A stretch of DNA of 64,000 nucleotides from Halobium salinum (GTDB lineage Archaea > Halobacteriota > Halobacteria > Halobacteriales > Haloferacaceae). The position numbers and the translations under genes were made by a program. The stretch is from assembly GCF_026586625.1 (NCBI RefSeq), contig NZ_JAODIW010000010.1:248001-312000 (forward strand), in the 5' to 3' direction. Within the stretch, counting starts at the first letter, position 1; every line of letters starts with the position of its first letter. The notes below the pieces were generated by a model that was not told where the DNA came from, ran no database searches, and saw only the letters and a program-made list of their open reading frames with translations. Positions 5,619 to 62,506 of the stretch are shown piece by piece.

Positions 5619-5673
5619 GGGGCAGTCGGTGGGAGTCGGCGTGAGAACGGCGAAGCGCCGCCGGCGCGCCGAC

Positions 5674-6009: not shown

Positions 6010-6033
6010 CGACGAGTGGTTACAGCGCCGACC

Positions 6034-6044
6034 GTTTAACTATT
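6034..6044 (-). promoter_or_regulatory. TATA box of the thioredoxin gene
   Basis: Read on the minus strand the block is GAATAGTTAAACGG, centred about 30 bp before the thioredoxin ATG at 6009. It is the only A/T-rich block in the gap. Confidence 0.5.
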
Positions 6045-6136
6045 CAGCCCGTATGCCGGCGGCGCGCACGACCGGGAAATCGCGATGTGGTCCCGCCGGA
6101 GCGGGGTCCCGTCGATCACTCGAAGCCGAGCGGCGG

Positions 6137-6799: not shown

Positions 6800-6927
6800 G
6801 GTGTTCGAGTGGCCATGTGCGGGTCGGCGACATTGGCGTTTCGGTGCGGCGGGCGCCGGCCCGCCGAGACCGTCGATTCGTCGGGCGACGGTGCGCGGAA
6901 TCGCCGGCTCGTCCGGCAGTCCCCGGT

Positions 6928-8424
6928 CTACAGCAGGCGCCGTGCGAGGCCGGCGAGGAGTAGGAGGAGCGTCCCGCCGCCGATTTCGAGTGGCCCGAGC
7001 GGCACGTCCGGCGCGCGCTCTCGCAGGTCCGACACCGGGGCGAGCAGGCCACCCGAGGACTCGTTCGCCGTCGACGAGTTCGCGTCCGTCGTGGCGGCCG
7101 CGTCGACCGTCCCGACGGTGGTCGGCGTCGGCTCGGCTGTGGGGGTCGATGTGGGAGCCACCGTCGGCGTCGGCTCCGCGGTAGTCGGCGTCGGTTCGGG
7201 CGTCGGGGTCGGCGTCGGTGTCGCGTTCGGGTCGCCACCGACGTAGGCCGTGTGGGAGACTCCCTCCCCGCCGAAGCGAATCTCGAAGGCGGTCCGTCCC
7301 GTCACGTCGCCGAAGTCGAACGTCGCGGACGCCGTTCCGGCCTCGGAGACCGTCACCGTCTGGCGTTTCACGAACAGATTGTCGACCGACCTGGAGACGG
7401 CTCGGACGTTCAGCCGCGTCCCCGGAGCGAGCGTCGTCCCGATGTCGACGCGCTGGCCGCCCGCCGCCTCGACGACCAGCGGGTCTCCCCCGACGCCGAT
7501 TCGGCGCTTCTTCACCGTGACGGTACGCGTGCGTCGCTCCGTCTCGCCGGCCGCGACGTAGGGGTTCTTCGACCCGTCGACGGTGAACTGGGTCCGGAAG
7601 CTGTCGCCGGGTTCGGCGTCGAAGTCGTCCGTGTCGAGGACGAGGTACAGCCGCTCGTCGGCGGTGAACAGCCGGCCCGACTGGATATCGACGAAGCGCC
7701 GCCCCTGATTGAACCGTTCGGTCGAGACGGAGAGCCGGACGCCGTCGGTCGCCTGTTGGACGTCGTCGACGGTCCGGACGTAGCCGGAGAGTCCGGTCGC
7801 GTCGACCCGTGCGACGAGGTAGTCGCCCCGCGCGACCGCCGCCGTCTCGGAGGCGTTCGTCGAGAGCGCCGTCGCGTTCGCCATGACGGCCTCGAGCGAC
7901 CCCGTCGAGGTCCCGCGCGGTGCGGTGTAGAGGGTGAGGCCGCGAGTCTCCCGCTCCTCGAGTTCGAGCACGCCGATGTCCGTCAGCCCGCCGTCGACCC
8001 GGGTGAAGACCCGGTAGGTCCCCGTGTCCACGGGTGCCTCGAGCGTCGGGGTCTCCCGGGTGGCGCTCACCAGCGTGGCGTTCGGCACCGAGAACACCTC
8101 TTCGGCGGACGCACCGCGCCAGCCACCCGCCTCGTAGGTGTTCATGTGAATCGTGACCCGCTCTCCTTGCTTCCCGCGGATGGTGAGGTTCACCCGATAG
8201 TTCACCGCCTCGGTGCCGACCTGTACGCGGGCCTGATTGGAGCCGTCGAGCTCGACGGTGAACGTCGCGACGTCGCCCACCTGTTCGACGGCCGTCCCGG
8301 TGCCGACGGTGACACTCGTGCTCCCGGTGCTCCCGGTACCGGCACCGCCGACGTACACCGAACCGAGGACGAGGGCGACGAGCAGGAGCGACCGGAACCG
8401 ACGTGGAGGGGGTGACGGGGACAT
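6928..8424 (-). CDS. Secreted, membrane-anchored surface protein with Thr/Pro stalk
   Basis: A 498-residue exported protein. Residues about 8-28 form a Sec signal (RSLLLVALVLGSVYVGGAG). A long beta-rich ectodomain resembles the BGTF/S-layer-like modules of haloarchaeal cell-surface glycoproteins. A stalk of repeated TPTPTP/EPTPTT (about 400-440) follows, then a C-terminal hydrophobic anchor (LLLLLAGLARRLL). The threonines and N-x-T/S sites suggest glycosylation. There is no canonical PGF-CTERM motif. Confidence 0.75.
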   Translation of the reverse strand: MSPSPPPRRFRSLLLVALVLGSVYVGGAGTGSTGSTSVTVGTGTAVEQVGDVATFTVELDGSNQARVQVGTEAVNYRVNLTIRGKQGERVTIHMNTYEAGGWRGASAEEVFSVPNATLVSATRETPTLEAPVDTGTYRVFTRVDGGLTDIGVLELEERETRGLTLYTAPRGTSTGSLEAVMANATALSTNASETAAVARGDYLVARVDATGLSGYVRTVDDVQQATDGVRLSVSTERFNQGRRFVDIQSGRLFTADERLYLVLDTDDFDAEPGDSFRTQFTVDGSKNPYVAAGETERRTRTVTVKKRRIGVGGDPLVVEAAGGQRVDIGTTLAPGTRLNVRAVSRSVDNLFVKRQTVTVSEAGTASATFDFGDVTGRTAFEIRFGGEGVSHTAYVGGDPNATPTPTPTPEPTPTTAEPTPTVAPTSTPTAEPTPTTVGTVDAAATTDANSSTANESSGGLLAPVSDLRERAPDVPLGPLEIGGGTLLLLLAGLARRLL

Positions 8425-8622
8425 CGGTGACTGTTAGTATACAATTAACTAACTGTCACAAATACGTACCGGTCAGAAATTTTATTTTCCGAGGTGAGAC
8501 GCTCGGAGTCCCAGCCAGGTCCGGCCTGACCATCGAATCGGGCCTCGGAGTCGAGCGGCCGCGGTCGGCGACCCACCGGAGAGACGCGACGCTTTTCCCG
8601 TCACCGTGGCTACCTCCGGCAA

Positions 8623-9153
8623 ATGAGCCAGCGAAACGACGTCGCCCCGAGCACCGTCTCGATATCGCTCGTCGATTACGGGGTCGAGGTGGAGTACCTC
8701 GACGGTCGGACCGCGGTGTACCGCGGAGTTCCCCAGAAGCGCGAGGGGTCGGTGACGACCGCCCCGGGCAAGGAGACCCACGTACTCGTCACCGACCCGA
8801 CGGAGACGGAGGGCGTGATGCTGTACGTCAACGACTACAAGACCGACGACGACATCCTCGAGGGCTCCGGCGTCGGGCGCATCCTCCTCGACGGGGACGA
8901 AGAGGAGGAGGTGTTCCCGGGCGTGACGGTCCACCGGTTGGGGAGCGAGCGCACCGAGGTGACGGCGGACCCCGAAGTCGCCCGCGGCCGCGTCTTCGTC
9001 TTCGCCGAGGACGACTGGAGCGAACAGAGCTACGAGATCGTCTCGTCCGACGAGGCGGGAGCTGACGAGCCGAGCGGCGAGGACGCGGGCGAGTCGAGCG
9101 ACGCAGACACGACAGAGTCGAGCGACGCGACCGACGCCGACGAGGGAGTCTGA
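8623..9153 (+). CDS. DUF5796-like acidic protein
   Basis: A 176-residue cytoplasmic protein with a beta-rich N-terminal half (DYGVEVEYLDGRTAVYRGVP) and a C-terminal tail of about 35 residues made of Ser, Asp, Glu and Thr. It fits a conserved haloarchaeal family of unknown function. The next gene begins 4 bp after its stop, so the two form an operon. Confidence 0.7.
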   Translation: MSQRNDVAPSTVSISLVDYGVEVEYLDGRTAVYRGVPQKREGSVTTAPGKETHVLVTDPTETEGVMLYVNDYKTDDDILEGSGVGRILLDGDEEEEVFPGVTVHRLGSERTEVTADPEVARGRVFVFAEDDWSEQSYEIVSSDEAGADEPSGEDAGESSDADTTESSDATDADEGV

Positions 9154-9156
9154 ACG

Positions 9157-9390
9157 GTGGCCCTCAGAAAGGCGTGGCGGACCCTCGACGCCTCGACCGT
9201 CGGGAGCGCTCCCGAGCGCTACGGCTACTACGAACTCGGCGACGGGTCGGGCGAGCGAATCGGCCGCGGCGTCGGCGTCCTCCGCGACGAGTTGAAGGAG
9301 GTGATGGCCTACGGGGACGCGGCGCAGGTGCGATGGGAGGCGGCGACGTCGAGGGAGCACGCCGAGCGAATCGCCGAGAGCCACGAGTAA
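9157..9390 (+). CDS. Conserved haloarchaeal small protein
   Basis: A 77-residue protein starting at GTG, directly after the preceding stop. The segment YGYYELGDGSGERIGRGVGV resembles the first strand-turn-strand of a GIY-YIG-like fold, but no catalytic Arg/Glu set can be traced, so nuclease activity is not claimed. It is co-transcribed with the DUF5796-like gene. Confidence 0.65.
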   Translation: MALRKAWRTLDASTVGSAPERYGYYELGDGSGERIGRGVGVLRDELKEVMAYGDAAQVRWEAATSREHAERIAESHE

Positions 9391-9443
9391 GACGAGTCGG
9401 GTTCGAGCGGTCGTCGCGCGCCGACGCCGACGCTGCCTCCGAC

Positions 9444-10547
9444 TCAGCGGAGCCGCCACACCAGTTTGTTGACCGCCTCGCCCGTCCCGACCGCCCAGAG
9501 GTCCGAGGCGACGGCGTAGGTGAAGTACAGCGGCGAGGCGTCGGGTGCGACCTCCACGATTCGCACGCCGGCGGCGGACTGCCCTGGCTCGACGAGCTCG
9601 CCGTCGTAGGCCGGTCGCCCCTCGAACTCGCCCGGGAGTTCGAGTCGGCGGGCGAACGACCGACCGAGCGCGTCGGTGAGCGCCATCCCGCCGACCCCGC
9701 CCACGTCCGCGACGATGGGGATGGCGGAGTCGTTCGCCACCGAGAGGTCGACGACGGCGTACTCGACGCCCTCGGGTCTGTCGAACTCCGGCACCTCGTC
9801 GACGAACGCCACGTCCGCCACCCGCGCGGTGATGCCGGCGACGCGGGCCTCCTCGCCGACGCCGGGGACGTTCCGGAAGGTCTGAGTCAGCGTCGCGGGC
9901 GTCTCCGCGGCCGAGACCACGTCGACGGCCGCCTCCGGGAGCGCCTCGAAGTCGGCCGGCAGCCGGCGCACGGACGGCGTGACGTGCAACGTCGGCGCGG
10001 GAGCGTCGACCGGAATCTCGAACGTCGCCGTCGCGGTCTGCATCTCCCCGGGTGCGAGTGCGAGCCCGCCGAAGTTCGCGAGCAACTCGGGGCTGAAGAA
10101 GTCCTCTACGTCGTGGCGCTCGCCGGTCCCGTCGTCGAGTTCGAACGCGTCGAACCCCAGCGCGAGGTACGCGTCGTCGACGTTCCTGAAGGCATACCGG
10201 AGCCGGTAGAAGGTCATCCCCTCGTCCGGTTCGAGTTCGACGGTGCCGCGCTGGAGCGTCGGGATGGTCGTGGCCTCGGTGACGAGGAACTCGAGCGACG
10301 GATACTCGACGGTTTGCCCGACGATGGCGGCGTCGCCGCCGCCCGCGACGGCGTCCGTCCCGCCGCCGGCTACGTCACCGTCGGTCGCGCCGTCGCCGCT
10401 CGCCGTCGCGTTCCCCCCTGCGGACTCGTTCTCGCTCGCGTTTCCCGGCGACGGGTCGCCACCCCCGGCCCCACAGCCCGCCAGCGTCGCGACCGCCGCG
10501 ACCCCACCCGCCCGAACGAAGTCTCTCCTGGTGAATCGGGGTGTCAT
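9444..10547 (-). CDS. Tat-exported lipoprotein with DUF4352-like domains
   Basis: A 367-residue protein. The N-terminus has a twin-arginine motif (RRDFVRAGG) and a lipobox ending LAGC (about residue 25), so it should be exported folded and lipid-anchored. After a Gly/Asn/Asp-rich linker come two similar beta-sandwich halves with motifs such as YRLRYAFRNVDD and VVDLSVANDS, which fit DUF4352-type immunoglobulin-like domains. The role is unknown. Confidence 0.75.
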   Translation of the reverse strand: MTPRFTRRDFVRAGGVAAVATLAGCGAGGGDPSPGNASENESAGGNATASGDGATDGDVAGGGTDAVAGGGDAAIVGQTVEYPSLEFLVTEATTIPTLQRGTVELEPDEGMTFYRLRYAFRNVDDAYLALGFDAFELDDGTGERHDVEDFFSPELLANFGGLALAPGEMQTATATFEIPVDAPAPTLHVTPSVRRLPADFEALPEAAVDVVSAAETPATLTQTFRNVPGVGEEARVAGITARVADVAFVDEVPEFDRPEGVEYAVVDLSVANDSAIPIVADVGGVGGMALTDALGRSFARRLELPGEFEGRPAYDGELVEPGQSAAGVRIVEVAPDASPLYFTYAVASDLWAVGTGEAVNKLVWRLR

Positions 10548-10641
10548 CTTCGAGCGGAGTACGCAATCGTCGATTATAGGCTTTGTACGGTGAGGTGTCC
10601 TCCGAACCGAACGTCACGGGAGCCGGAGAGTCGGCCGGAGG

Positions 10642-10776
10642 TCACTGGAGGTACGACGGGTCCTCCGCGTCGCACGTCTTCTCGTGCTGTCGGGCGTCAT
10701 CCTGGGCGTCGAAGAGGAGGCCGCACTTCTCGCACTCGTACCACGTCGCCTCCTCCTTCTGGGTCGTGGTGACCAT
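10642..10776 (-). CDS. Small C2HC-type zinc-finger protein
   Basis: A 44-residue protein starting MVTTTQKEEATWY, with CEKCGLLF followed by H and C (about residues 34 and 38), giving a CxxC...HxxxC finger. Longer upstream extensions are rich in Arg and lack family character, so the ATG at 10776 is preferred. Matching microproteins are widespread in haloarchaea; the function is unknown. Confidence 0.7.
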   Translation of the reverse strand: MVTTTQKEEATWYECEKCGLLFDAQDDARQHEKTCDAEDPSYLQ

Positions 10777-10914
10777 ACGCACACCTCGGACGGGGCGGAA
10801 CAAAACGGTTGCCCCACCCGTGACGGCGCCGGACCGAGCCGAGCGCAAACCCGCGGTGACGGGGTCGCCTCCCCGGGGCCAACGCTAAAGCGGGGGCCAC
10901 GCCAACGGTCGGCC

Positions 10915-13344
10915 ATGAGCGACGATTCCGGACTCGAACTCAGCGTCCGCGGCGCCGAGAAGCGCGACGCGGGCCGGGGAATCGCCCGGCTCCCGCAGTC
11001 GGCGATGCAGGCGCTCTCCGTCATCAGCGGCGACACCGTCGTCGTCGCCGGCGAGCGCGAGACGGTGGCGAAGGTGTGGCCCGGCCGCGGCCTCGCCGAG
11101 GAGGGGACGGTGCTCGTCGACGCCGACACGCGTGGCAACGCGGGGGTCCACATCGGCGACACCGTTCGGGTCAGAAAAGAGGACGTCGAGGAGGCGGACG
11201 CCGTCACCCTCGCCGCCCCCGACGACCTCTCGAACACGAGCCGGGACGTCGTCGTCGAGGCCGTCCGGCGCGAACTGCTGAACCGCCCGCTCCACGCCGA
11301 GGAGCGGGTTCGCATCGAACGTCTCGGCGGCAGTGCGTTCGTGGTCGAGCGCACCTCTCCCGACGGAATCGTGAGCGTCACCGACGAGACGCGCGTGGAG
11401 GTGGCCTTCGCCGACGACACGGTCCGCTCCGGGTCCGGGCCGGGCGCCGGGTCGCGGACGACGGGAACGGGGTCGGCCCCGAGTTCCACCTCGTCCTCGT
11501 CTTCGGCCTCGAACGTCGACGGGGCGTCGGGAGCGGGGTCCTCCGGCGGCGGCCGAGCATCGGGAGCGGGGGCAGGGGCAGGGTCCACGTCGGAGTCGGG
11601 GAGGGCCGCCAACCACCAGCGCACGGGCGTCAGCTACGAGGACATCGGCGGGCTGGACGAAGAACTCGAACTCGTTCGCGAGATGATAGAGCTCCCCCTC
11701 TCCGAGCCGGAGCTGTTCACTCGGCTCGGCGTCGAACCGCCGAAGGGCGTCCTCCTCCACGGGCCGCCCGGCACGGGGAAGACGCTCATCGCGAAGGCCG
11801 TCGCCAACGAGGTCGACGCGCACTTCATCTCCGTCTCGGGGCCCGAAATCGTCTCGAAGTACAAGGGAGACAGCGAGGAGCGCCTGCGCGAGACGTTCGC
11901 CGAGGCCCGGAACGAGGCGCCCACCGTCGTCTTCTTCGACGAAATCGACTCCATCGGCGGGAAGCGCGACGAGGGCGGCGACATGGAGGACCGCATCGTC
12001 GGCCAACTCCTCTCGCTGATGGACGGTCTGGAGGGCCGTGGCGAGGTCGTCGTCATCGGCGCCACGAACCGCGTCGACGACCTCGACCCGGCGCTCCGAC
12101 GCGGCGGGCGCTTCGACCGCGAAATCGAAATCGGCGTCCCGGGCGAGGCCGGCCGGCGGGAGATTCTCGACGTCCACACCCGAAACATGCCCCTCGCGGA
12201 CGACGTGGACCTCGACCGCGTCGCCGACCGCACCTACGGGTTCGTCGGCGCCGACCTCGAGTCGCTGGCGAAGGAGGCGGCGATGACGGCGCTCCGACGA
12301 CTCCGTCGGGGGAGCGGACCCGAGAAACCCCGGAGCGTCGGCGTCGGCGACGGTGACCGGGGCGAGGACGAAGACGAGGGCGACGGCGCCGACGGGGAGT
12401 CGGCGGATGCGCACGGGGAGGGAGACGACGACACCCGGTCGGCGACCGGCATCGCCATCGACGACCTGCAGGTCACCCGGAGCGACTTCGACGCGGCCAT
12501 GGCGAGCGTCGAGCCCAGCGCGATGCGGGAGTACGTCGCCGAACAGCCGAGTACGACGTACGCCGACGTGGGCGGGCTGGACGAGGCGAAGGCGACGCTT
12601 CAGCGGTCGGTGACGTGGCCGCTGACCTACGGCCCGCTGTTCGACGCCGCCAACGCCGACCCGCCGACGGGCGTCCTCCTGCACGGCCCGCCGGGCACCG
12701 GGAAGACGCTGCTCGCGAAGGCCATCGCCGGCGAGACCGGCGTCAACTTCATCCACGTCGCCGGCCCCGAACTGCTCGACCGGTACGTCGGCGAGTCCGA
12801 GAAGGCCGTCCGGAAGGTGTTCGAGCGCGCCCGACAGGCCGCCCCGGCCATCGTCTTCTTCGACGAGATAGACGCCATCGCGACGACCAGAGACGGCGGC
12901 GGGAGCGACTCCGGCGTCGGCGAGCGCGTCGTCTCCCAACTCCTGACCGAACTCGACCGGCTCTCCGAGAACCCGAACCTCGTCGTCCTCGCGGCCACCA
13001 ATCGGAAGCCCGCGCTCGACCCGGCGCTCCTGCGGCCCGGCCGCCTCGAGTCCCACGTCGAAGTGCCGGCGCCCGACGAGGCCGGCCGCCGGAAGATATT
13101 CGCCGTCCACACCGCCGACAAGCCCCTCGCGGACGACGTGGACCTCGACGACCTCGCGAGCCGGACCGCGAACTACACCGGCGCCGACGTGCAGGCCGTC
13201 TGCCGGGAGGCCGCGATGCTCGCCATCAAGGACGTGACCGAGCGCTACGAGGGCGAGACGGCGAACGAGCACGCCGACGAGGTGGTGCTCCGCGACGAAC
13301 ACTTCGAGGCCGCGCTCGACACCGTGTCGCCGACGCTGGCCTGA
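10915..13344 (+). CDS. Cdc48/VAT-type AAA ATPase
   Basis: An 809-residue double-AAA ATPase. The N domain (about 1-170) has a double-psi beta-barrel start (RLPQSAMQALSVISGDTVVV). D1 has Walker A GPPGTGKT near residue 283 with DEIDSIGG, and D2 has Walker A near 591 with DEIDAIATT. The family unfolds substrates for the proteasome and remodels complexes. Two long low-complexity linkers are unusual: a Gly/Ser/Ala-rich one between N and D1 (about 172-235) and an acidic one between D1 and D2. No PAN-like coiled coil or HbYX tail is present. Confidence 0.93.
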   Translation: MSDDSGLELSVRGAEKRDAGRGIARLPQSAMQALSVISGDTVVVAGERETVAKVWPGRGLAEEGTVLVDADTRGNAGVHIGDTVRVRKEDVEEADAVTLAAPDDLSNTSRDVVVEAVRRELLNRPLHAEERVRIERLGGSAFVVERTSPDGIVSVTDETRVEVAFADDTVRSGSGPGAGSRTTGTGSAPSSTSSSSSASNVDGASGAGSSGGGRASGAGAGAGSTSESGRAANHQRTGVSYEDIGGLDEELELVREMIELPLSEPELFTRLGVEPPKGVLLHGPPGTGKTLIAKAVANEVDAHFISVSGPEIVSKYKGDSEERLRETFAEARNEAPTVVFFDEIDSIGGKRDEGGDMEDRIVGQLLSLMDGLEGRGEVVVIGATNRVDDLDPALRRGGRFDREIEIGVPGEAGRREILDVHTRNMPLADDVDLDRVADRTYGFVGADLESLAKEAAMTALRRLRRGSGPEKPRSVGVGDGDRGEDEDEGDGADGESADAHGEGDDDTRSATGIAIDDLQVTRSDFDAAMASVEPSAMREYVAEQPSTTYADVGGLDEAKATLQRSVTWPLTYGPLFDAANADPPTGVLLHGPPGTGKTLLAKAIAGETGVNFIHVAGPELLDRYVGESEKAVRKVFERARQAAPAIVFFDEIDAIATTRDGGGSDSGVGERVVSQLLTELDRLSENPNLVVLAATNRKPALDPALLRPGRLESHVEVPAPDEAGRRKIFAVHTADKPLADDVDLDDLASRTANYTGADVQAVCREAAMLAIKDVTERYEGETANEHADEVVLRDEHFEAALDTVSPTLA

Positions 13345-13556
13345 CGCCGGCGAGGTCGGCTAAACCGCCGTCGACGTGCTCGCCGAGGAGCCGCCCGAGG
13401 ACTCTCCCCTCGTCGGCCGCGAGAACGTCCTCGTCACGCCTACGGAGCCGGTACTCGGAGGCCTCCCGCGAGGAGCTGAACCGGGCCACGTCGCCGACGT
13501 GGCCCGCGTGGTCCGCGGCGACAAACCCTATGCGTCGACGGTCCTTCGCGGCGGGT

Positions 13557-18725: not shown

Positions 18726-20756
18726 TCAGATGGCCTTCAGCGAGTCCTCGCCGGGCTCGTAACATTTCCCGCTCATCAGGGCGTCCTGGATGGCGTCGTC
18801 GGCGTCCTCGGGGTCCGCGCCGTAGCGCTCGACGAGCGCCGCGACGACGTTCTCGCGGGCGGCGCCGTCGCCGTCGTCCAGTTCGTCCATGATGTCGACG
18901 GCCGTAGATTCGAGGTCGACGTCGGCGGCGTCAGGGGTGCCCTCGGCGTCGGCCTCGTCGGTCTCCGCGGTCGCGGTGTCGGTGTCGGCTCCGGAGTCCT
19001 CGCTGCCCGCGTCGAAGTCCCCGAGGTCGCCGTCGCCGGTGGCGTCGGTCGCCTCTGCGGGTTCGGCGGCCGCGTCGGCGTCCGCGCTCGCGGCCTCGGC
19101 GTCGACGGTCGAACCGGTGGAGGCCGCACTCGACGTACCGCCAGTAGCGGCCTTCTCGTCTTCGTCCCCGTCGCCGCCGTCGGCCTCCTCGGTCAGGTCG
19201 TCGGCGTCGGGTACGTCGATGTCGGCCTCGCCGGGGTCGGCCACGTCGTTCCCCGTCGAGAACTCGGTGCCGAACTCCGCTTCGACCTCGCGGCGTTCGT
19301 CGTCGTCGAGTTCGTACATCCCGTCGTCGTCCGACCCGGCCGTCTCGGCCGCCTCGGCGGGTTCGGCCGCCGTCGACTCGTCCTCGTCGACGAGCGACCC
19401 GGTGGAGGCGGCGTCGTCGGCCCTCGCGGCGGCCGGCTCCGACTCGCTCCCGTCGCCGGCGTCGGCTCCCGCATCGAAGTCGCCCAAGTCGTCACTCGCG
19501 GCGCCGGGGTCCGCCGCTTCGGCGGGCTCGGCGGCCCCCGATTCGGTGTCGACCGTCGACCCCGTCGAGGCGGCGCTGGACGCGTCTCCGCTCGCCGAAT
19601 CGGCGGCGCTCGTATCGGCCGCGGGCTCGTCCGCGACCGTCTCGGTCGGCGTCGCCTCGTCGGTCCCGGTCGCCTCGGCGGGTTCGGCGGCCGTTTCGTC
19701 GCCGGCGGCGTCCGCGTCGAGGGTCGACCCCGTCGAGGCGGCGCTCGTCGCGTCCGCGGTCGCCGGTCCGTCGGTATCGGTCGCATCGCTCGCGTCTGCC
19801 GAACCGCTCGCGTCGGCGCCGCCCGTGGTCGTCTCGGGGTCGCTCGACTCCGGCGTCGCCGCCTCGGCGGGTTCGGCCGCCGTCGACTCGTCCTCGTCGA
19901 CGAGCGCCCCGGTGGAGGCGGCGTCGGCCGCGCCTGCGGCGGCCGGTTCGTCCGCATCTTCGGCCGACGACGGTTCGGCTGCGGCGGCGTCGAGGTCGAC
20001 GCCCTCCGGGAGCGCGCCGAGGTCGGCGCTGCCGCCCTCGTCGGGAGCGACGTTCAGACCCCGGACCTCGTCGCGCTCCCCGGCGACGACTTCGAGTGCG
20101 TCGACGGCGAGTTGGCGAACCGCCTCCAGATAGGCCGTCGTCGTCCCGTAGTGGTCGATTGCGTACGGGACGCCCGTCGCGAGCGAGGACTGGACGCCCG
20201 CGGCTTCGAGGGCGTCGCGCAGGTCGTCGCCGCGCAGGTCCGAGGCGACCGCGTCGCGCATCACCGCGAGGCGGTGGAGGGTGGACTCGGCGGTCGTGAC
20301 GAGCCACCGGTCGCGAGTCTCGGCGTCGACAGAGTTGAGGCTCTCCGGGCGGACCGAGGTGTAGATGCGGTCGCTGTCCTCCGGCTGAAACGTCCGGGCC
20401 TTCCCGGTGAGCGCGACGAACGCGGGCGGCGTGGTGCGTTCTAAGTACGCCTGCTCGTCGGGCTGGTACTGGCCGGCGTAGGTGACGAACGGGCCGGTCG
20501 CGTCGACGACGCGGCCCCGGACGATGTCCTCGTTGACGGACTCGACCTCCGTCAGAACGCCGACGGCGAACATCCGGTTGATGCGCGCGCCGGTCGGCGA
20601 GACGACGTAGTTCGGGGCGCGCTCCTCGTCGCTCTCGGAGTAGGAGAACGTCGCGTCGTCGAACTCCGCCGCGAACAGGCGCTGGGCGACCTCGCGGCTG
20701 CCCGGGCCGGCGTCGGAACTGTCGTTCGAGTTCGAATCCGAGTTCGACCCGCTCAT
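18726..20756 (-). CDS. RPA-associated protein with long disordered repeat tail
   Basis: A 676-residue protein starting at the ATG that overlaps the rpa1 stop by 3 bp. The N-terminal 220 residues form the conserved OB-fold-like region (VVSPTGARINRMFAVGVL, RGRVVDATGPFVTYAG). A very long acidic Ala/Asp/Glu/Ser/Thr linker follows, then a C-terminal winged-helix-like domain (ENVVAALVERYGADPEDADD). The family (COG3390) works with RPA in haloarchaeal replication and repair. The linker carries five internal repeats and makes the protein far longer than a bare family core. Confidence 0.88.
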   Translation of the reverse strand: MSGSNSDSNSNDSSDAGPGSREVAQRLFAAEFDDATFSYSESDEERAPNYVVSPTGARINRMFAVGVLTEVESVNEDIVRGRVVDATGPFVTYAGQYQPDEQAYLERTTPPAFVALTGKARTFQPEDSDRIYTSVRPESLNSVDAETRDRWLVTTAESTLHRLAVMRDAVASDLRGDDLRDALEAAGVQSSLATGVPYAIDHYGTTTAYLEAVRQLAVDALEVVAGERDEVRGLNVAPDEGGSADLGALPEGVDLDAAAAEPSSAEDADEPAAAGAADAASTGALVDEDESTAAEPAEAATPESSDPETTTGGADASGSADASDATDTDGPATADATSAASTGSTLDADAAGDETAAEPAEATGTDEATPTETVADEPAADTSAADSASGDASSAASTGSTVDTESGAAEPAEAADPGAASDDLGDFDAGADAGDGSESEPAAARADDAASTGSLVDEDESTAAEPAEAAETAGSDDDGMYELDDDERREVEAEFGTEFSTGNDVADPGEADIDVPDADDLTEEADGGDGDEDEKAATGGTSSAASTGSTVDAEAASADADAAAEPAEATDATGDGDLGDFDAGSEDSGADTDTATAETDEADAEGTPDAADVDLESTAVDIMDELDDGDGAARENVVAALVERYGADPEDADDAIQDALMSGKCYEPGEDSLKAI
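19051..19923 (-). repeat. Five coding repeats in the RPA-associated protein
   Basis: Units at about 19861-19923, 19672-19743, 19515-19575, 19351-19413 and 19051-19128 each encode AASTG(S/A) followed by (T/L)(V/L)D, a short acidic stretch and AAEPAEA. They are 60-78 bp long, spaced unevenly, and similar in DNA sequence, which suggests duplication. Confidence 0.8.
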
Positions 20757-22074: not shown

Positions 22075-22448
22075 CGTCGTCTATCGCGGTGGAAGTGATT
22101 TCTTGCGTGGTCGGACTCGGGATTGTTGTGCGACTTTCGGCCGGCGACGACCCGATGACCCAGCAAAGCCCTCGCGCTCTCGGGTCGCACGGCGGGGCGG
22201 CCGGCGCGCGCCGCCGCGGCTCCGGCCGCGGTGCATCCGTGCGAGGGATGAGCGACCGAAGGGAGCGAATCGGCTGGGGAGGACGTGGCTGCAGTGCGGT
22301 CGGGTGGGGCCCCTTTCAAGGGACATCGCCTCGATACCTCGTCACATCGGTACCTCGACACCTCGTTGTACACAGTCACATCCACCGAACACCACTAAAA
22401 CGGCACGAACCCCTAAGTACCACCGACGTACACACCCAAGTAGCAACC
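22075..22448. other. Gene-free stretch with GC-rich repeat-like sequence
   Basis: About 370 bp without a credible frame. The part around 22180-22330 holds GC-rich inverted blocks and the run GCGAGGGATGAGCGACC, followed by GAGCGAATCGGC. It resembles the degenerate palindromic sequence found between many haloarchaeal genes. The last 40 bp should hold the promoter of the gene at 22449. Confidence 0.5.
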
Positions 22449-35751: not shown

Positions 35752-37224
35752 ATGATAGATTTGGGAGGGGACGCGAAACCCTGTGGTCGTTGTGGCGGTA
35801 CGTCGCGGCGGCGGCGTCTCGCGTACGAGCACGAACCGTGTGGCCGAATCGACCTCACGACCGACGACTGCGGGGCCGTCTCGTGTCCTCGGTGTGCGGT
35901 CGGGAGCGAGGACCGGACGCACCCCGAGTTCGCTCACGTCGGGACCGTCGACGAGTGCCGGAACTGCGGCTACCGCGAGCACGCGACGGACGCTACCCCT
36001 GCCGAGCCCGAAGGGTCGGACCGGGCGGTGGCGCGCCCGTCGCTCTCGGCGCTCGTCGCCGGGGGCGCCGGTGCGGCTCGACGGACGGCGACCGTCGCGC
36101 TGGTGGTGCTTCTGGTGACCACGGCGGTCGGCGCCGGCGTGCCGACCGGGCTGGTCGGCGGGGTCTCGTTCGACGGGAACGAGGGTCAGCCGGCGACGAC
36201 GCAGCCGACCGAGTGGCGCGAGTACCGGACCATCGTCGTGTTCCGGAACGACGACCCACAGCCGGCGTACCACTTCGAGACGCTCCTGGCGGTCGACCGG
36301 GTGTTCGTTGAGGAGAACGTCCCCCTCACGACGGGGGTCGTCGGCGCCCCCCACGGGGAGGAACTCGAACCCGACAGCCGGTTCTGTCGCTACCTGCGCG
36401 CCAACGAGCGGCGACATCCGGAGCTCGTCGAGTACGCGCTCCACGGTTACAGCCACCGCACGGAGACGGCGTTCGCGTCCGGGAGCGAGTTCGGCGGGTT
36501 GCCGGCCGCCGAACAGCAGCGGCGCGTCGAGCGGGGCACCGAAGCGGTGACCGACTGTGTCGGCCAGCGACCGCGTACGTTCGTTCCCCCGCTGAACTCC
36601 TACGACCGGAACACGACCGCGGCGCTCTCCGCGGCCGGCTACCGGACCGTCTCCGGCGGCGGCTGGTTCACGAAAGCGTACTACAATCGGTCGGGAACGT
36701 TCGAATCGGGCGGGCTCCGTCACACACCCTCCGTGAGCGGGTTCGTCGCGAACTGGAGCACCGGCGAGTTCCACGACCGTGAACGGCTCTACGGCGACTT
36801 CGACCGGTCGTATCGGAACGGGTCGATACACGTCCAGATGCTCCACTACCAGTACTTCGCGACGGCCGACCGGCGGCAGCTGCTCCGTGAGTATCTCCGC
36901 CACGCGAAGTCGAAGCCCGGCGTCCGATTCATGACGCTCGGCGAGCTCTCGACCGGACTCGACGAGGGGACGGTCGTCCGCACCGACGACGGCTGGCGGG
37001 TGCTCGAGTCGACCGACCCGACCGACAGGAGCGACTCGACCGACCCGACCGACAGGAGCGACTCGACCGACCCGACCGACAGGAGCGATAGGAGCGACCG
37101 AGCCGGGTCGGCGCTCGGTACGGCCGGCGGCGAGGGTGTCGGGGCGGACGGGCCGGCGCCGTCTGTCGGCTCCCCCGCCGCGAGTCGCCCCGTCCGGCTC
37201 CCGGTCACGGGAGGGCGACGATGA
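35752..37224 (+). CDS. Membrane-anchored polysaccharide deacetylase
   Basis: A 490-residue protein. The N-terminus holds Cys pairs resembling zinc ribbons (CGRCG, CPRC, CRNCG), then a membrane helix near 105-125. A NodB-type deacetylase domain follows, with FRNDDP near residue 164 and HGYSHRTE near 230, the metal-binding Asp and His motifs. The C-terminal tail carries short SDSTDPTDR repeats. It overlaps the glycosyltransferase start by 4 bp. It probably deacetylates an amino-sugar polymer. Confidence 0.82.
   Translation: MIDLGGDAKPCGRCGGTSRRRRLAYEHEPCGRIDLTTDDCGAVSCPRCAVGSEDRTHPEFAHVGTVDECRNCGYREHATDATPAEPEGSDRAVARPSLSALVAGGAGAARRTATVALVVLLVTTAVGAGVPTGLVGGVSFDGNEGQPATTQPTEWREYRTIVVFRNDDPQPAYHFETLLAVDRVFVEENVPLTTGVVGAPHGEELEPDSRFCRYLRANERRHPELVEYALHGYSHRTETAFASGSEFGGLPAAEQQRRVERGTEAVTDCVGQRPRTFVPPLNSYDRNTTAALSAAGYRTVSGGGWFTKAYYNRSGTFESGGLRHTPSVSGFVANWSTGEFHDRERLYGDFDRSYRNGSIHVQMLHYQYFATADRRQLLREYLRHAKSKPGVRFMTLGELSTGLDEGTVVRTDDGWRVLESTDPTDRSDSTDPTDRSDSTDPTDRSDRSDRAGSALGTAGGEGVGADGPAPSVGSPAASRPVRLPVTGGRR
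37012..37090 (+). repeat. Three tandem 27-bp coding repeats
   Basis: About three near-identical 27-bp units encode STDPTDRSD in the tail of the deacetylase. The near identity of DNA suggests recent slippage. Confidence 0.9.
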
Positions 37225-56518: not shown

Positions 56519-56711
56519 TGTTCTTACAATCTATATCTGCTGCCACAAATACGGTTCTCGGCGATTCACAGTACTATCCTCACTCCCCCCGGCTCCATGA
56601 ACATTATCCTGTGGCTCCCCTGATGATTTCTGGGCGATAGCCGCGATTATTTTCTACCCTATAGCCTCGGAGGATAGGTTTGATGCGTGACTTTCTTTCA
56701 GCGTAGTTGCT

Positions 56712-57176
56712 GGTGACTCAGCTTCTAGAGACAGAGCGTGTCTACTGCTCTGCACCGATGCTTGTTCCAAGACTATTCTTCCGGCCCTGAACGATGAAGT
56801 AGACGGACAACAGGAGACTTACGCCCATCAGCCCGAATACTATCTCTGATGATACCAATGGTACACTCTGCTCTTCCAAGAGGTCGCTGAAGAGTATGAG
56901 CCCAAGCGCTAGTGAGAGTGTAGAGAACGTAAACTGGAGCTTCTGATTCTTACTCTGTTCTGATTTACGTGTCCACACCCAAACAATTGCGAAAGGAGCT
57001 GTGCCGACAAGAAAGAGAGTGGCAAGTAGTGAAATATCCATGTGCTACAGCTACATTCTGAAACGGTAAATATTCTATCACCCTCCGAGACGAATAATCA
57101 GCGTCCACTCCTCCCGAAAGCTACGACTCAATTATCTAGTGCTAGACTCGCGGCACCTCTCTAGGAGGTGAGTCAC
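56712..57176. mobile_element. Cassette 1: inverted-repeat-bounded single-gene unit
   Basis: Left repeat 56712-56744 (GGTGACTCAGCTTCTAGAGA, then CAGAGCGTGTCTA); right repeat 57144-57176 in opposite orientation (on the minus strand GTGACTCACCTCCTAGAGAG then GTGCCGCGAGTCT). One membrane-protein gene lies between them and its stop codon is part of the left repeat. No transposase. No clear target-site duplication. Confidence 0.65.
56742..57041 (-). CDS. Small membrane protein of cassette 1
   Basis: A 99-residue protein with three membrane helices (LLATLFLVGTAPFAIVWVW, TLSLALGLILFSDLL, EIVFGLMGVSLLLSVYFIV). It ends with AEQ and its TAG stop is within the flanking repeat. The sequence is unrelated to the protein of cassette 3. 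Function unknown. Confidence 0.6.
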   Translation of the reverse strand: MDISLLATLFLVGTAPFAIVWVWTRKSEQSKNQKLQFTFSTLSLALGLILFSDLLEEQSVPLVSSEIVFGLMGVSLLLSVYFIVQGRKNSLGTSIGAEQ

Positions 57177-57575
57177 AGCGAGTGGTGGTGAAATTAAGTT
57201 GCGTTGTGTCCCCCGACGAGGAGGACGAGGCATGAGCAAGCCTCTCGCCGGCCACGCTGATACCCTCACCGGTGCCCGAGAGCAACAGAACACACCCGCC
57301 CTCGTCAAGCGAATTGAGGGAACGAGACAGCCCGCATCGAGAGCGAGTCGCCAACCGGGCGCACCAAGGGTGACATGACCGCTTGCTTCGTCCTGTAGAC
57401 CGCCACCAGGGGTCTGCCGGGTTATCGTCTTCACCCGACCGATGACGCGCCGAACGTCGCCAATATGCTATTCGCGGAAACGCCGCTCTACCGTCAGATA
57501 CGTCTCTCAGCAGCGAAATGCGGTCTCTAATTCGTCCCCGGGACTCTGATTCGGTGGCGAGACAAACCAACCCGT
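57177..57575 (+). pseudogene. Decayed partial copy of the gene at 59739-61107
   Basis: The DNA aligns with about 60200-60560 in blocks such as CACCCGCCCTCGTC, GAGAGCGAGTC, ACCGGGCGCACCAAGG, GACGCGCCGAACGT and CGGTGGCGAG, but with many substitutions, indels and stops. The reading frame is destroyed. It begins right after the right repeat of cassette 1, so it was truncated by or before that insertion. Confidence 0.65.
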
Positions 57576-57660
57576 CTTACACCCCAATATAGGTGTAACG
57601 AGGCAGAAAAAGTCTCTCTCCCAATAAACATTTATATACTCGGGACGAGACGTTTCTAAT

Positions 57661-58785
57661 ATGCGAAACAGAATGCGTTTCCGCCCGGTTACAGTGGAAG
57701 ACGTAGAAGTGGAGGAGATAGTGCGAGGACTCGTTTATCTCCCGGACCTCCTAGAGGCACCAGCGCTTGATCCTCACGAATATGAGTCCATCTCCGAAGC
57801 AATCCAGGACGTAGCTTTTGAGATGGACGAGATCAAGGAGGAATTCGGAGACACAGAGTACGTTTCCCACTATCAGAAACTAGCTGAATGGGCTAATGAG
57901 TATGTGGCACGGGTTGATTCGGAGTGTAACTTTTCCGATGGTGATTCAGAAGCTATAGCTGGCGACTGTCTAACTCTCCGACTATGGGGAGATACTAAGC
58001 CCGCTGCAAGCCCGTTTGTATTCGAAATCGATTATCATGCAGGGGGAGAGGTCGGGTGCCGCTTACTGACGGTTCCAAATTACGACCGTTCATGGGCTGA
58101 GGGGACCCAAGTACCATGGACTGACAGAAGCCATGAGCTTCGAGAGACAGACGTCGAGTTGGACTACGACGGTACTTTGACTACATCGTCAATCAATGAG
58201 ATTTGGTCAATTCTCTTGGAAGAGGTTCCATATGTTACCGGCCGAGTACAGGAATTGTACGAGGAGGGTGGAATCCCACTTAGCCAAGCACGGACACGTG
58301 CACTCAAAGAAAGTGGATGCTCGGAAGAAGAGATCAGCCGTCGGTTGGATGTCGGAGAACGAACGGTGTCTTCATACCAATCAAAATATCGACAAACGGC
58401 TCGAGAAATCCGGCGTGCCTTCCTCGCGACAGCCGGACCACCGATGCGAATAGTCGCATCAAATACGTGGGAGTGGGATGAACAGCCCGTTCAGTTATTC
58501 GTTGCTATCCCTAACTGGTATGATTCTAATGTTGACCTTCCTAACGGTACCCAGGCATCAATTCCGGGAGCGTGGCTGATTGAGTTCCCGCCCGTGCAAA
58601 GCAGGTGGGACTTTCAAATGGAAGTTGAAGCGTTCGACTCTCTTAGCGACCTGCTTAGCGAGCTTGATGAAAGGGCAGAAAATGAGAGCTATCAGGGTTA
58701 TGGCCCCAATTGGAACGGGCTTCGCCAACAGATTCCTCGAGTCCTTCGTGAACGGGCTGATCAGCCGTCTCGGTGGTGGGTATGA
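57661..58785 (+). CDS. Unknown protein with sigma-70-region-4-like helix-turn-helix
   Basis: A 374-residue protein. Residues about 200-245 contain a helix-turn-helix of the LuxR/sigma-region-4 kind: GIPLSQARTRALKESGCSEE then EISRRLDVGERTVSSYQSKY. The rest is an alpha/beta domain with acidic patches and a C-terminal half rich in Trp and aromatic residues (ASNTWEWDEQPVQLFVAIPN). It is coupled to the Mre11-like gene by an ATGA overlap. No family recognised; possible regulator or DNA-recognition partner of the phosphoesterase. Confidence 0.6.
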   Translation: MRNRMRFRPVTVEDVEVEEIVRGLVYLPDLLEAPALDPHEYESISEAIQDVAFEMDEIKEEFGDTEYVSHYQKLAEWANEYVARVDSECNFSDGDSEAIAGDCLTLRLWGDTKPAASPFVFEIDYHAGGEVGCRLLTVPNYDRSWAEGTQVPWTDRSHELRETDVELDYDGTLTTSSINEIWSILLEEVPYVTGRVQELYEEGGIPLSQARTRALKESGCSEEEISRRLDVGERTVSSYQSKYRQTAREIRRAFLATAGPPMRIVASNTWEWDEQPVQLFVAIPNWYDSNVDLPNGTQASIPGAWLIEFPPVQSRWDFQMEVEAFDSLSDLLSELDERAENESYQGYGPNWNGLRQQIPRVLRERADQPSRWWV

Positions 58786-59732
58786 GTCAGAAAACACGCT
58801 TGCTCTGTGTGGGCGATACACATCTCGGAAGGGCGGAAACTTCGGACGGGAAGAAAGGCTCACATGGCCAGTGGGCGTACATCTTTGCGTTCGAAGCGGC
58901 CATTTCGATTGCAATATATCGAGACGCTGACGCCATCGTACACACGGGGGACATCTTTGAAACTCAGCGTCCGTCATCCACAATCGTAAGCATCGCACGG
59001 AGACAACTTGCTCGGCTAAGGGAAGCCGGGATACAATTCTGCTACGTACCCGGCGATCACGATGAGGAAACCGGACGCCACCAGCGACACCCTCGAGCGA
59101 GCCGGTACGAAGACGTACTACAGAAAATTCAACTTCCGAGAACGCCCGGAATTGACGACTTTATGAGCGAATACCAAACGTTCAATCTAGGTCGAACTCC
59201 CCATATGGTAGCTCACAATTGTGCCCTCTATGGAATCCCGAGTTCACAGCGAACTGAAAAAGAGTATCGCCAAGGTATCACTCCGATTCAATCGGACACC
59301 TCCAATCAGGATGGGATATTCAACATCATAAACGCTCATGCAGGAATTTCGCCGGGATGGAAACGAGCTCGTCACGACATCCCCTCAGTGCTTGGTGAAC
59401 TTCCCAATCGAATGTCGATAGACGTTCTCATTTGTGGTCATCTTCATCGACCGGAAGTGCGAGAATATCCCACTGACTCTTGCCCCCTGTTCATCAACCC
59501 CGGTTCTCCGGTCCGTATCAACGGAGCAACTAATCGAAATTATCAGCCACAGGTGACCTTGCTTGAGTTCCCGAACGGCCGAAGCAAGTCCACGGCAGGC
59601 TGTATTGAACGAGAAAGGATTGACGTTCCTGTGACCCAATCGGGCTGTGCAAGACTCGCTGAAAAGGCACGTGAAGCACTATTCGAAACCCGACAAAACA
59701 GGCAGGATGTGACCGCTGCCGAACCAGCATGA
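58782..59732 (+). CDS. Mre11/SbcD-like metallophosphoesterase
   Basis: A 316-residue phosphoesterase. Motifs in order: LLCVGDTHLGRAE, AIVHTGDIFE, YVPGDHDEE, INAHAGISPG and LICGHLHRPEV, the metal-binding set of DNA-repair exonucleases of the Mre11/SbcD type. The GDHDE motif has Asp where GNHD is usual. There is no SbcC/Rad50 ATPase nearby. It is translated with the helix-turn-helix protein upstream. Confidence 0.8.
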   Translation: MSQKTRLLCVGDTHLGRAETSDGKKGSHGQWAYIFAFEAAISIAIYRDADAIVHTGDIFETQRPSSTIVSIARRQLARLREAGIQFCYVPGDHDEETGRHQRHPRASRYEDVLQKIQLPRTPGIDDFMSEYQTFNLGRTPHMVAHNCALYGIPSSQRTEKEYRQGITPIQSDTSNQDGIFNIINAHAGISPGWKRARHDIPSVLGELPNRMSIDVLICGHLHRPEVREYPTDSCPLFINPGSPVRINGATNRNYQPQVTLLEFPNGRSKSTAGCIERERIDVPVTQSGCARLAEKAREALFETRQNRQDVTAAEPA

Positions 59733-59738
59733 GTTCCG

Positions 59739-61107
59739 GTGAAAACGCCGCGTCCTTGCCCAAGGAAGCCGATTGGCACTTTCACGTTTCGGGAAACCAG
59801 CGACAGTCCGGTGACCGTGGCCGACGCCGTCGAACGCGCCGCCACGCAGGGCGTTTACGACACCGCCTGTCGTGCCGGCGGCCCCGAGGCGTATGTTTAA
59901 ACCTCGCTGAGTGTGCCGACGCCGTCACGCGGCGTGTGGCCGCCCTCGACGAGATGCCCGTCCCCGACTCGGTCGGCGTCCTCCTCGACACCACCGACGA
60001 CCTGTGGCGCCGCCTCCTGCAGTACGTCAGCGACGACCGCCTCGACGTCCGCGAACAGGACGGGGAGGCGGTCCTCCGAGCGGTGTCGCCCCGCTTGACG
60101 ATCGCGACCGTCGGCGAGAATCAGTCCGCCGGCGGCGCCGGCTACGCCCTGCTCCTGTGGGACGCCCACCCCGGGCTGACGTACGCCGGCCTCGACATCA
60201 CAATCGCCGACGCGAGTGGCGACGACGCCGACGCCCTCGCTCGACCGACGCCCGAGGCCGAGCAGCACGCGCCCGCCCTCGTCGAGCGGCTCACCGGCGG
60301 CGAGGAGGCCCGCGTCGAGAGCGAGTCCTCGACCGGGCGCACCAAGGCCGGCATGACCGCCCGCCACGTTCTGCAGGCCGCCGCCGAAGGCCGTCGGGCT
60401 ATCGTCCTAACTCGCCCCGACGACGCGCCGAACGTGGCCGACACGCTCCTCGCGGAACCGCCGTTCTGCCGGTCAGATTCAGTCGAAGACGGCGAAACCC
60501 GATACTACACCTCGCCCCGTGACCTCCGAATCGGTGGCGAGGCCTTGACCCGGCCCGGCTCCCGGTCGAACGTGTGGGTACGGGAGGCGAGCGGCGAGGT
60601 CGTCCTCCGAGACGACGTCGGGACCGAACACGCCCGGTTCCCCGACGTCGCCGCCGCGTTCAGCGACGCCGACGCCTACCCGGGCGGCGAGCGGACGGTG
60701 AAACGCCCATCGTCCCCGAGGCGCTGCTCGACGGCGTCGACGCCGAGCCCCACACAGAGATAGTGACCGTCCCCGAGGGCGCGACCGACCTGTCGGACCT
60801 CTCGCTCGTCGTCGACGACCGGGGCCTGACCGTCCCTGCCGAGGCGGTCGGCGCCGGCTCGGGCTCGGGCGCTCCCGATCGGGACGCGGTCGACCCCGAG
60901 GACCTCGACGTGACCGACGGGGCGCGCGAGCTCCTGCGGGCGCTCCGAGAGGCCGGCGACAGTCCCGTGACCGTGGCCGACGCGGTCGAGCACGTCGACG
61001 TCTCCCGTCGGTCGGTGCGAAACTACCTCGGTGCCCTCGCCGACGAGGGGGCGCTCCGACGCGAGGAGACACCCGGGACGTCCGCCGACCTGTTCCACCT
61101 CGACTGA
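59739..61107 (+). pseudogene. Frameshifted gene of unknown function with C-terminal winged helix
   Basis: The reconstructed protein (about 455 residues) starts at GTG 59739 (KPIGTFTFRETSDSPVTVAD ...GGPEAYV), shifts frame near 59896 into LAECADAVTRRVAALDEMPV, and shifts again near 60700 into PIVPEALLDGVDAEPH, ending DLFHLD. The middle carries STGRTKAGMTARHVL and EGRRAIVLTRPDD. The C-terminal region (DSPVTVADAVEHVDVSRRSV) is a winged helix. The DNA encoding DSPVTVADAVE also occurs near the N-terminus. High GC unlike its surroundings suggests transfer from another haloarchaeon. Confidence 0.7.
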
Positions 61108-61145
61108 CTCGACTGCAGAAAGGCTTTATTCCACTACCGTTCGCT

Positions 61146-61808
61146 GTGAATCAGCTCCTAGAGAGGTGCCGCGTATGCAGGACATCAACCTATCAAGATT
61201 CGATTTTTACCGGTCACCAGTTTGAACACTGGTGTGTGGACATCGTCCAGTCGTCAGAACCACCTTTCTGCGATGTTACCCTGTAGCCTTGGATGGCTCC
61301 GCTACAGCTGAGCGTCTTTATTGAGCGATATGTCCCGTCGTCTTCGTCGTAGACAAGGACGACGATTGCTTTGTTAGGGGCGACACCCTCAACATCGATT
61401 TGCTTTCGCTCACCAGGCTGGAGGGTATACTCACCGTGTCTACTGGCGGACTCAGGAAAGTCAATGTGAGTGAAACTCGAAGCATTCGAGGTGGTGTATG
61501 TGGATGAGCCTTGGTTGATTGTGTAATTGAATGAATCACCATCTCCGTCCTGAACGGTGAGATTGTTACCGACTTCAACGACACCCACCGTGAACGTCTC
61601 CGTCTGAGTTGCGTTGTTCACCATCATCACCGGCGCTGGCTCTTTCTGTGGTGCAGGTTCTACACCGGGAATGGCGCTACAGCCTGCGAGACACACCAGA
61701 AGAACGAGTCCGAATGGCACCCACTGAGTCACTTTCTACTATTTTGTCAGGTAGCGATATGGTTCCTTCGCTCCGCAACTCACGCTCTATCTATAGGAGC
61801 TGGGTCAC
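61146..61808. mobile_element. Cassette 2: inverted-repeat-bounded single-gene unit
   Basis: Left repeat 61146-61176 (GTGAATCAGCTCCTAGAGAG then GTGCCGCG); right repeat 61781-61808 (CACGCTCTATCTATAGGAGC then TGGGTCAC) in the opposite orientation. Between them is one lipoprotein gene. In this unit the gene points toward the left repeat. Confidence 0.6.
61214..61732 (-). CDS. Small lipoprotein of cassette 2
   Basis: A 172-residue secreted protein. The signal ends in the lipobox CLAGC (LVLLVCLAGC, about residue 18). The mature part is beta-rich with a repeated Thr/Asn/Ser pattern (TETFTVGVVEVGNNLTVQDG) and two late cysteines. Resembles small immunoglobulin-like lipoproteins of haloarchaea. Function unknown. 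Confidence 0.65.
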   Translation of the reverse strand: MTQWVPFGLVLLVCLAGCSAIPGVEPAPQKEPAPVMMVNNATQTETFTVGVVEVGNNLTVQDGDGDSFNYTINQGSSTYTTSNASSFTHIDFPESASRHGEYTLQPGERKQIDVEGVAPNKAIVVLVYDEDDGTYRSIKTLSCSGAIQGYRVTSQKGGSDDWTMSTHQCSNW

Positions 61809-61855
61809 ACCGACTGACGCTGGAAGAAACTCCCTTTGTTCCGACCGGGTTCGAC

Positions 61856-62335
61856 GTGACTCAGCTCTTAGAGAGGTGCCGCGAGTCTCAGATTGACTCC
61901 CCAGCACCTATGTCGTGACCTTCCTATGTGTGAACGATGATTTCGCGTCGAACGAAGGCTCGGATTAGTTTTGTCAGCAGCCTCTATCGAGCATATCAAC
62001 GCTGTACTCGGGTGGTAAATAACGAAGAGACAGTTCAGTTTGCCCCTCGATATTTTGTCCTCGGTTTTATTTATCAAATCGTACGCGGATGGACATACGA
62101 CCGTGACTACGGCAATAACCGTACAAACCGCTGGCGTCGGTTCTTGATTCCGGTGGCGATCTTTCCTCTTCTTCTGAAACTATTAGACCTAATCTCAGAA
62201 TCCGAACGCGAAAGTCTCGTACTAGGTGCCGCAGTTGGGACGATACTGTACAGACTTTGGTATGGAGTCCTCAATCCGCTTCCTGACACAGTGAGCGAAC
62301 AATAGACACGCTCTGTCTCTAGAGGCTGAATCACC
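61856..62335. mobile_element. Cassette 3: inverted-repeat-bounded single-gene unit
   Basis: Left repeat 61856-61888 (GTGACTCAGCTCTTAGAGAG then GTGCCGCGAGTCT); right repeat 62303-62335 (TAGACACGCTCTGTCTCTAG then AGGCTGAATCACC). It matches cassette 1 turned round: the stop codon of the enclosed gene is the TAG of the right repeat. The tetranucleotide CGAC flanks both ends, a possible 4-bp target duplication. Confidence 0.65.
61937..62305 (+). CDS. Small membrane protein of cassette 3
   Basis: A 122-residue protein. Basic N-terminus (MISRRTKARISFVSSLYRAY), membrane-like segments around FVLGFIYQIV, FLIPVAIFPLLLKLL and LVLGAAVGTILYRLWYGV. The stop codon lies in the flanking repeat. Not related to the cassette 1 protein. 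Function unknown. Confidence 0.6.
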   Translation: MISRRTKARISFVSSLYRAYQRCTRVVNNEETVQFAPRYFVLGFIYQIVRGWTYDRDYGNNRTNRWRRFLIPVAIFPLLLKLLDLISESERESLVLGAAVGTILYRLWYGVLNPLPDTVSEQ

Positions 62336-62506
62336 GACGACTATACTGAAAAGAAAGGAACGTATCCGCGACGGATCAGACAGATAAAGCGGACGGTTTT
62401 CAGAGCGGTTCCAGATACTACTGACCCCCAGTTACCCGGACGCGGTTCACTTTCTCCCCGGTCCAAAAACATTGATAATACTGAAGGTACTCATTCCTAT
62501 CGTATC

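Follow-up and report, generated by a model that had tools for sequence, protein, structure and literature searches.

Introduction

In Acinetobacter plasmids, dif modules (p-dif) are bounded by inversely oriented tyrosine-recombinase sites of ~28 bp, and matching spacers choose the partners; the published model is replacement of a single module via a cointegrate that is then resolved (PMC13141974). Integrons are bacterial; they were also found in 75 archaeal metagenome-assembled genomes, in a report where Halobacteria are unmentioned (PMC9668308). In the viruses phiCh1 and phiH1, inverted repeats lie on either side of the int1 gene, whose product switches tail-fibre genes (PMC6210493, PMC6471424). 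Gene cassettes bounded by two unlike, inverted sites are described here from a 64,000-nt stretch of Halobium salinum NZ_JAODIW010000010.1 (the window: the whole stretch that was analysed), from the rest of this host genome (G000; C10 is another contig of it) and from other haloarchaea. The evidence points, with a probability of about 0.8, to an integron-like system of cassette exchange, in which each cassette would have two non-cross-reacting sites and a recombinase resembling phiCh1 Int1 would act in trans. No such haloarchaeal system was found in the literature (open-licence PMC papers, preprints excluded).

Sites and cassettes

The 19-nt core GTGACTCAGCTCCTAGAGA is found in six copies in the window, with 1-3 mismatches; shuffled sequence gives 0. 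The copies (56713+, 57158-57176-, 61146+, 61790-61808-, 61856+ and 62316-62334-) are paired +/-, with one gene per pair. Two flavours of end are distinguished: G (57176, 61146, 61856) and C (56713, 61808, 62334). The original prediction, made from the window, was of six repeats in three inverted pairs, of one small gene per pair (two membrane proteins and one lipoprotein) and of one repeat of each flavour per cassette; all of this stands for window cassettes 1-3. Conservation extends beyond the core, for ~22 nt outward (motif TTTCTTTCA) and into a second arm on the inner side.

The three cassettes that had been proposed are real, but this scope was too narrow: a search of the host genome with the core gave 41 matches versus one when the pattern was reversed, and still more came from models built for the G and C ends. 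The host has about 30 or more cassettes of ~0.2-2.8 kb, which stand alone or form arrays of six at most (fetched regions). One G end and one C end in inverted orientation were found in 28/28 paired host cassettes. The centre of the G end is GTGCCGCG, that of the C end AGAGCGTG. Arrays are all head-to-tail. Their linkers are all C|G (14/14) and are exactly 47 bp long in 13 cases, 46 bp in the remaining one; the 47-bp linker contains one C-side plus one G-side outer half.

The layout of an end, from outside to inside, is: TTTCTTTCA-like motif, ~12 nt, GTGACTCAGC, arm, 9-nt centre, inverted arm. Judged by sequence, each end resembles a ~27-bp core site of tyrosine recombinases, with inverted 8-bp arms and a centre of ~11 nt. 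As inverted repeats, the arms match at 3.8-5.7 of 8 positions versus 2.0 in shuffles. The arm pair is clearest in genus g70 (TGTTAGAC - ACGTGCCGCGA - GTCTAACA) and weaker in the host (CCTAGAG - GTCTAG). Despite these unlike arms, the centres GTGCCGCG and AGAGCGTG are common to the host and g70, which belong to two different families. The array of G405 (g70) is carried by plasmid NZ_CP100450 of Halomarina sp. BCD28. Paired copies do recur elsewhere, enclosing many different genes. Counts of cassettes and sites outside the host genome are lower bounds; the sample holds one genome per species.

Exchange of cassettes

The same cassettes are found at unrelated loci. The bodies shared by L041 and L042 (388 bp) and by L034 and L036 (292 bp) are 100% identical, with unrelated flanks and with differences confined to the end cores; two g70 species likewise carry one cassette at different loci (L093, L100). 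The cassettes of another pair (L109, L120) are 96-98% identical. G245, a genome of another family, has a counterpart of the host cassette that encodes a beta-lactamase-family protein, with 93.7% identity across 1.55 kb. Here, identity begins at the inner arms; the outer arms are each genome's own, and the two kinds of centre are the same.

Conversely, different cassettes are found at the same locus. In G245 and G247 (L093 versus L110/L111), the flanks are 99.9% identical over 4.9 kb and 99.2% over 1.3 kb, the end site and its centre included. Past the shared centre, the two loci continue with unrelated cassettes, a pattern repeated on either side of the recombinase gene. Between the same flanking genes, host locus L036 and L058, its counterpart in G043 (another genus), have different contents. 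Taken together, the two sets of comparisons narrow the crossover down to the 7-9 bp centres. Both parts of the original prediction, cassettes that can be exchanged and a family of recombination sites not described before, are borne out by these loci; the two centres of the sites are constant and behave like crossover regions.

Two other positions of the breakpoint were ruled out. A crossover in the TTTCTTTCA region or in the middle of the linker is rejected because copies of the same cassette retain locus-specific sequence up to the centre. A breakpoint set by the CTAG of the core is rejected by differences on both sides of CTAG.

Transposon-like insertion, with target duplications and empty sites, had been expected. 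Target duplications are lacking: at five register shifts, 0-2 of 28 cassettes gave a match, about the rate for mismatched pairs of flanks. Practically no empty site was seen, the empty-dock search in G000 having been run at a low, uninformative stringency. The pattern is that of site-specific exchange.

A separate observation concerns L111 (3372-3470; G247 C26): two tandem A-type G sites lie upstream of a frameshifted recombinase gene, and one of them, TGTTAGACACGTGCCGCGAGTCTAACAGCTGAGT, is near an empty-dock form.

Recombinase

The cassettes had been thought to move in trans, without an enzyme of their own. This is supported: no recombinase is encoded in the window, and one is encoded on C10 (20346-21143), where its gene is flanked by two outward-facing G sites. 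The protein (266 aa) is a tyrosine recombinase that matches Pfam PF00589 only. Among its relatives, those studied best are Int1 of phiCh1 and of phiH1. Its identity is 43% to phiCh1 Int1 and 50% to the HCTV-5 integrase. The residues R..HxxR..Y are present in an alignment of 15 recombinase sequences. NCBIfam gave weak Xer models only (best 24.6-26.8 bits versus a cut-off of 220).

Relatives 73-77% identical are encoded in G245 and G247, each gene likewise lying between outward-facing sites, with an attachment arm directly 3′ of the gene end; the gene is thus between inverted sites in three genomes (G000, G245, G247). The copy of G245 has one in-frame TGA; G247 has one intact gene, one frameshifted gene and one remnant. 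The clade was found in 5 of 391 genomes of the class, and three of those five are among the most site-rich. G245 also encodes, on C16 (L129), a second recombinase of 63% identity, followed by a variant site, TTTCTTTTCACGCGCGCTGGCACCGATGTTGCCGATAGGC...GCCGCGTGTGTTTC.

More distant homologues (~48% identity) are found in the host family Haloferacaceae, including Haloprofundus halobius (G079). Their genes end beside a different motif of 23 nt, which has 3-38 copies per genome in 8/8 genomes and 0-1 in controls. Cassettes bounded by this motif use two site types, with one of each in 56/60 cases (fetched regions); 43/49 of their array linkers are exactly 37 bp. The 23-nt motif has exact matches in many genera, such as Haloquadratum, Halorubrum, Haloferax, Halorussus, Haladaptatus and Natronococcus. 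Viral contigs scanned for exact patterns, and genome contigs scanned with the host-type site, gave no match; the host record may be absent there.

Proposed mechanism and alternatives

In the proposed mechanism, crossover would take place within the inner 7-9 bp of the ~11-nt centre. As the constant centre of one end differs from that of the other, each type of site would be expected to recombine only with its own kind (G with G, C with C). An array has the form (G-body-C-linker)n, in which the G sites are direct repeats of one another, as are the C sites; therefore G x G or C x C recombination could excise a circle made of a cassette and a linker. This circle could insert elsewhere via either type of site. 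Entry at one type of site followed by exit at the other would replace the resident cassette and leave the outer arms untouched, and the replacement pattern so predicted is the one observed at the loci. A lone cassette, having two inverted sites that do not cross-react, could not be excised by these alone. The logic of cointegrate and resolution is taken by analogy from the dif modules (PMC13141974). The acting enzyme would most likely be the phiCh1-Int1-like tyrosine recombinase of C10, working in trans. The circles, the order of the steps, the G/C selectivity and the identity of the enzyme are inferred.

Dispersed single genes between inverted repeats, with no internal transposase, would also be left by non-autonomous transposons, either miniature inverted-repeat transposable elements (MITE-like) or transposase-less mobile insertion cassettes, whose terminal inverted repeats are recognized by a DDE transposase acting in trans. 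This is very unlikely here: target duplications are lacking, the two ends have two different constant centres, and orthologous loci hold different cassettes within identical end sites. Moreover, copies of one cassette with 100% identical bodies carry the outer arms and end cores of their locus; the ends do not travel. A true integron would be defined by an IntI-type integrase, attI and a folded single-stranded attC. The consensus of the integron core site is GTTRRRY, with which the g70 arm GTTAGAC agrees, whereas the arm of the host genome is CCTAGAG. Head-to-tail arrays, mostly single-gene cassettes and a recombinase gene adjoining an attachment site are also what an integron would show. This reading is nevertheless highly improbable, since each cassette has two unlike sites (28/28) instead of one attC, and the linker site is without a conserved fold (4 pairs, no compensatory change). 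Rfam gave no match, and the NCBIfam search of the recombinases, beyond its weak Xer models, matched no model specific for integron integrases.

Ordinary homologous recombination is efficient in haloarchaea. It could swap cassettes whose repeats are regulatory elements, the outer motif and the divergent linkers being readable as promoters. We regard this as extremely unlikely: loci that share identical bodies have unrelated flanks, a substrate of 19-27 bp would be short, the one-G-one-C rule is strict and the linkers are constant. It is unlikely, too, that the cassettes are moved by XerA or another integrase of the host instead of by the cassette-adjacent enzyme. The C10 enzyme is encoded at a distance from most cassettes, and the host has eight integrase genes (the seven besides that of C10 all lie outside cassette islands); host Xer proteins are capable of such movement, as the dif modules of Acinetobacter show (PMC13141974). 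Against this, a site-adjacent recombinase is kept in three genomes, a 63% identical paralogue has a variant site, and the distant homologues are each paired with site sequences of their own.

Several observations weigh against the proposed exchange system itself. G405 and G299 have site matches but no recombinase of the clade at the threshold used, and the host has a single gene of this clade, distant from the window. AlphaFold models the enzyme with low confidence (57.4); the Foldseek matches of this model are tyrosine recombinases, none of which passes E 0.001. The island of L058 (G043; 6315-8181), which encloses a DUF2971-like gene, is apparently C-type at both ends and so appears to be an exception to the one-G-one-C rule, unless its inner G end is degraded. 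The model gives no role to the outer arms (TTTCTTTCA/GTGACTCAGC, TTGCCGG). The breakpoints come from few pairs, hence an uncertainty of 1-3 bp. Recombinase activity is predicted from sequence, and no circular cassette was seen.

Layout of the island in the window

An inverted pair of C-type ends (56692-56749 and 62299-62360) encloses the whole island. Cassette 1 (56713..57176; 464 bp) runs from C end to G end. Its C-type end (56692..56749, + strand) comprises the outer motif TTTCTTTCA (56692-56700), the core (56713-56731), the centre CAGAGCGTG (56732-56740) and the inner arm. The gene (56742..57041, - strand) encodes a membrane protein of 99 aa with a sub-threshold match to DUF6249. The G-type end (57141..57202, - strand) has its centre GGTGCCGCG at 57149-57157, its core at 57158-57176 and its outer motif TTAATTTCA at 57189-57197.

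Between this end and the next, outward-facing G ends border a segment (57177..61145) that contains an open reading frame of 374 aa, a metallophosphoesterase gene (319 aa) and two related GC-rich gene remnants. Its position equals that of the recombinase gene in C10 (L036), without a recombinase in the window. Within the segment, a two-gene unit (57661-59732) seems to be inserted into a GC-rich gene, or between two partial copies of it; of the remnants, 57323-57499 repeats 60301-60478.

Cassette 2 (61146..61808; 663 bp) runs from G end (61120..61181, + strand; core 61146-61164, centre GGTGCCGCG 61165-61173) to C end (61773..61808, - strand; core 61790-61808, centre TAGAGCGTG 61781-61789). Its gene (61214..61732, - strand) encodes a lipoprotein of 172 aa, with relatives 31-35% identical in the array region of another haloarchaeon; the G-proximal 116 bp of the cassette are 88% identical to a cassette region on the Halomarina sp. 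BCD28 plasmid. Cassettes 2 and 3 form a two-cassette array, joined by a 47-bp linker (61809..61855) whose middle is GGAAGAAA-N-TTTGTTCC. Cassette 3 (61856..62334; 479 bp) again runs from G end to C end. The G-type end (61856..61891, + strand) comprises the core (61856-61874), the centre GGTGCCGCG (61875-61883) and the inner arm; the C-type end (62299..62360, - strand) has its core at 62316-62334 and its centre CAGAGCGTG at 62307-62315. The gene (61937..62305, + strand) encodes a membrane protein of 122 aa, for which a family search gave no match. The TAG stops of the genes of cassettes 1 and 3 had been reported to lie within the repeat; they do, within the C-type end's inner arm (GTCTA).

Other conserved and repeated sequences were seen, some of them near docks. 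Outside the C-type dock, a stretch of ~75 bp (CGGAGGATAGG...CTTTCTTTCAGCGTAGTTG) is kept at docks of several genera, far past the site (window 56665-56740, L103, L104, L105, L106, L108). A repeat of ~130 bp lies 100-300 bp from several docks (window 22184-22313, L042 8773-8973, L043 8394-8593, L032 6895-6963, L034 7920-8157). Short direct repeats are found in the window at 19025-19946 and 37005-37088. Immediately past the right edge of the window (L045), at 2.4 kb from cassette 3, two tyrosine recombinase genes bracket a DNA methylase gene and a set resembling type I restriction-modification (2624-3889, 4339-12085, 12510-13520); the M, S and R subunits were assigned by eye.

Cargo and significance

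The cargo consists mostly of small membrane proteins, lipoproteins and unknowns. Also encoded: a PIN-domain toxin with a probable antitoxin, CNNM, a beta-lactamase-family protein, an alpha/beta hydrolase, an acetyltransferase, an APH-like kinase, an aminotransferase and regulators.

It seems somewhat probable that the Halobacteria at large have an unrecognized third cassette platform, made of arrays and single docks, with two heterospecific inverted core sites, a recombinase resembling a viral invertase and lineage-specific site families in many genera. If so, haloarchaea, noted for rampant gene exchange, would own a dedicated machine for swapping single genes, and many orphan genes of their accessory genome would be explained. 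This would suggest an origin of cassette exchange separate from that of integrons, perhaps in the tail-fibre invertase of a virus. As a laboratory tool for exchanging cassettes, a single small enzyme with two natural sites that do not cross-react would also be of use.

Comparison with known systems

Recombinase-mediated cassette exchange is a laboratory technique in which two non-cross-reacting sites around the cargo permit its replacement. The cassettes described here share with it the heterospecific flanking sites; here the arrangement is natural. With mobile insertion cassettes and MITE-like elements they share transposase-less single genes between inverted repeats, but have no target duplications, have unlike ends and are exchanged at fixed docks. 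With Int1 of phiCh1 and phiH1 they share a homologous recombinase whose gene lies between inverted sites; Int1, however, inverts one intraviral tail-fibre region, and no dispersed cassettes or arrays are described for it.

The likeness to integrons lies in arrays of mostly single-gene cassettes, in a recombinase gene beside an attachment site, and in isolated cassettes and enzyme-less arrays. Integrons have one structured attC and IntI; here, there are two heterospecific inverted sites and a phiCh1-Int1-like enzyme. With dif modules, the likeness is that of small modules between inverted sites (~27 bp here, ~28 bp there). The dif modules depend on host XerC/XerD and have unlike arms and 6-bp spacers, whereas the sites described here have near-palindromic arms, a crossover centre of 7-9 bp and a recombinase family encoded beside them. 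Two constant centres per cassette, linkers of fixed length, head-to-tail arrays and archaeal hosts are further differences. A system that works like integrons and dif modules, lacks features that define integrons, and differs from dif modules in its sites and its probable enzyme can therefore be called a new variant of the site-specific cassette systems, and a case can be made for counting it as a third kind besides these two.

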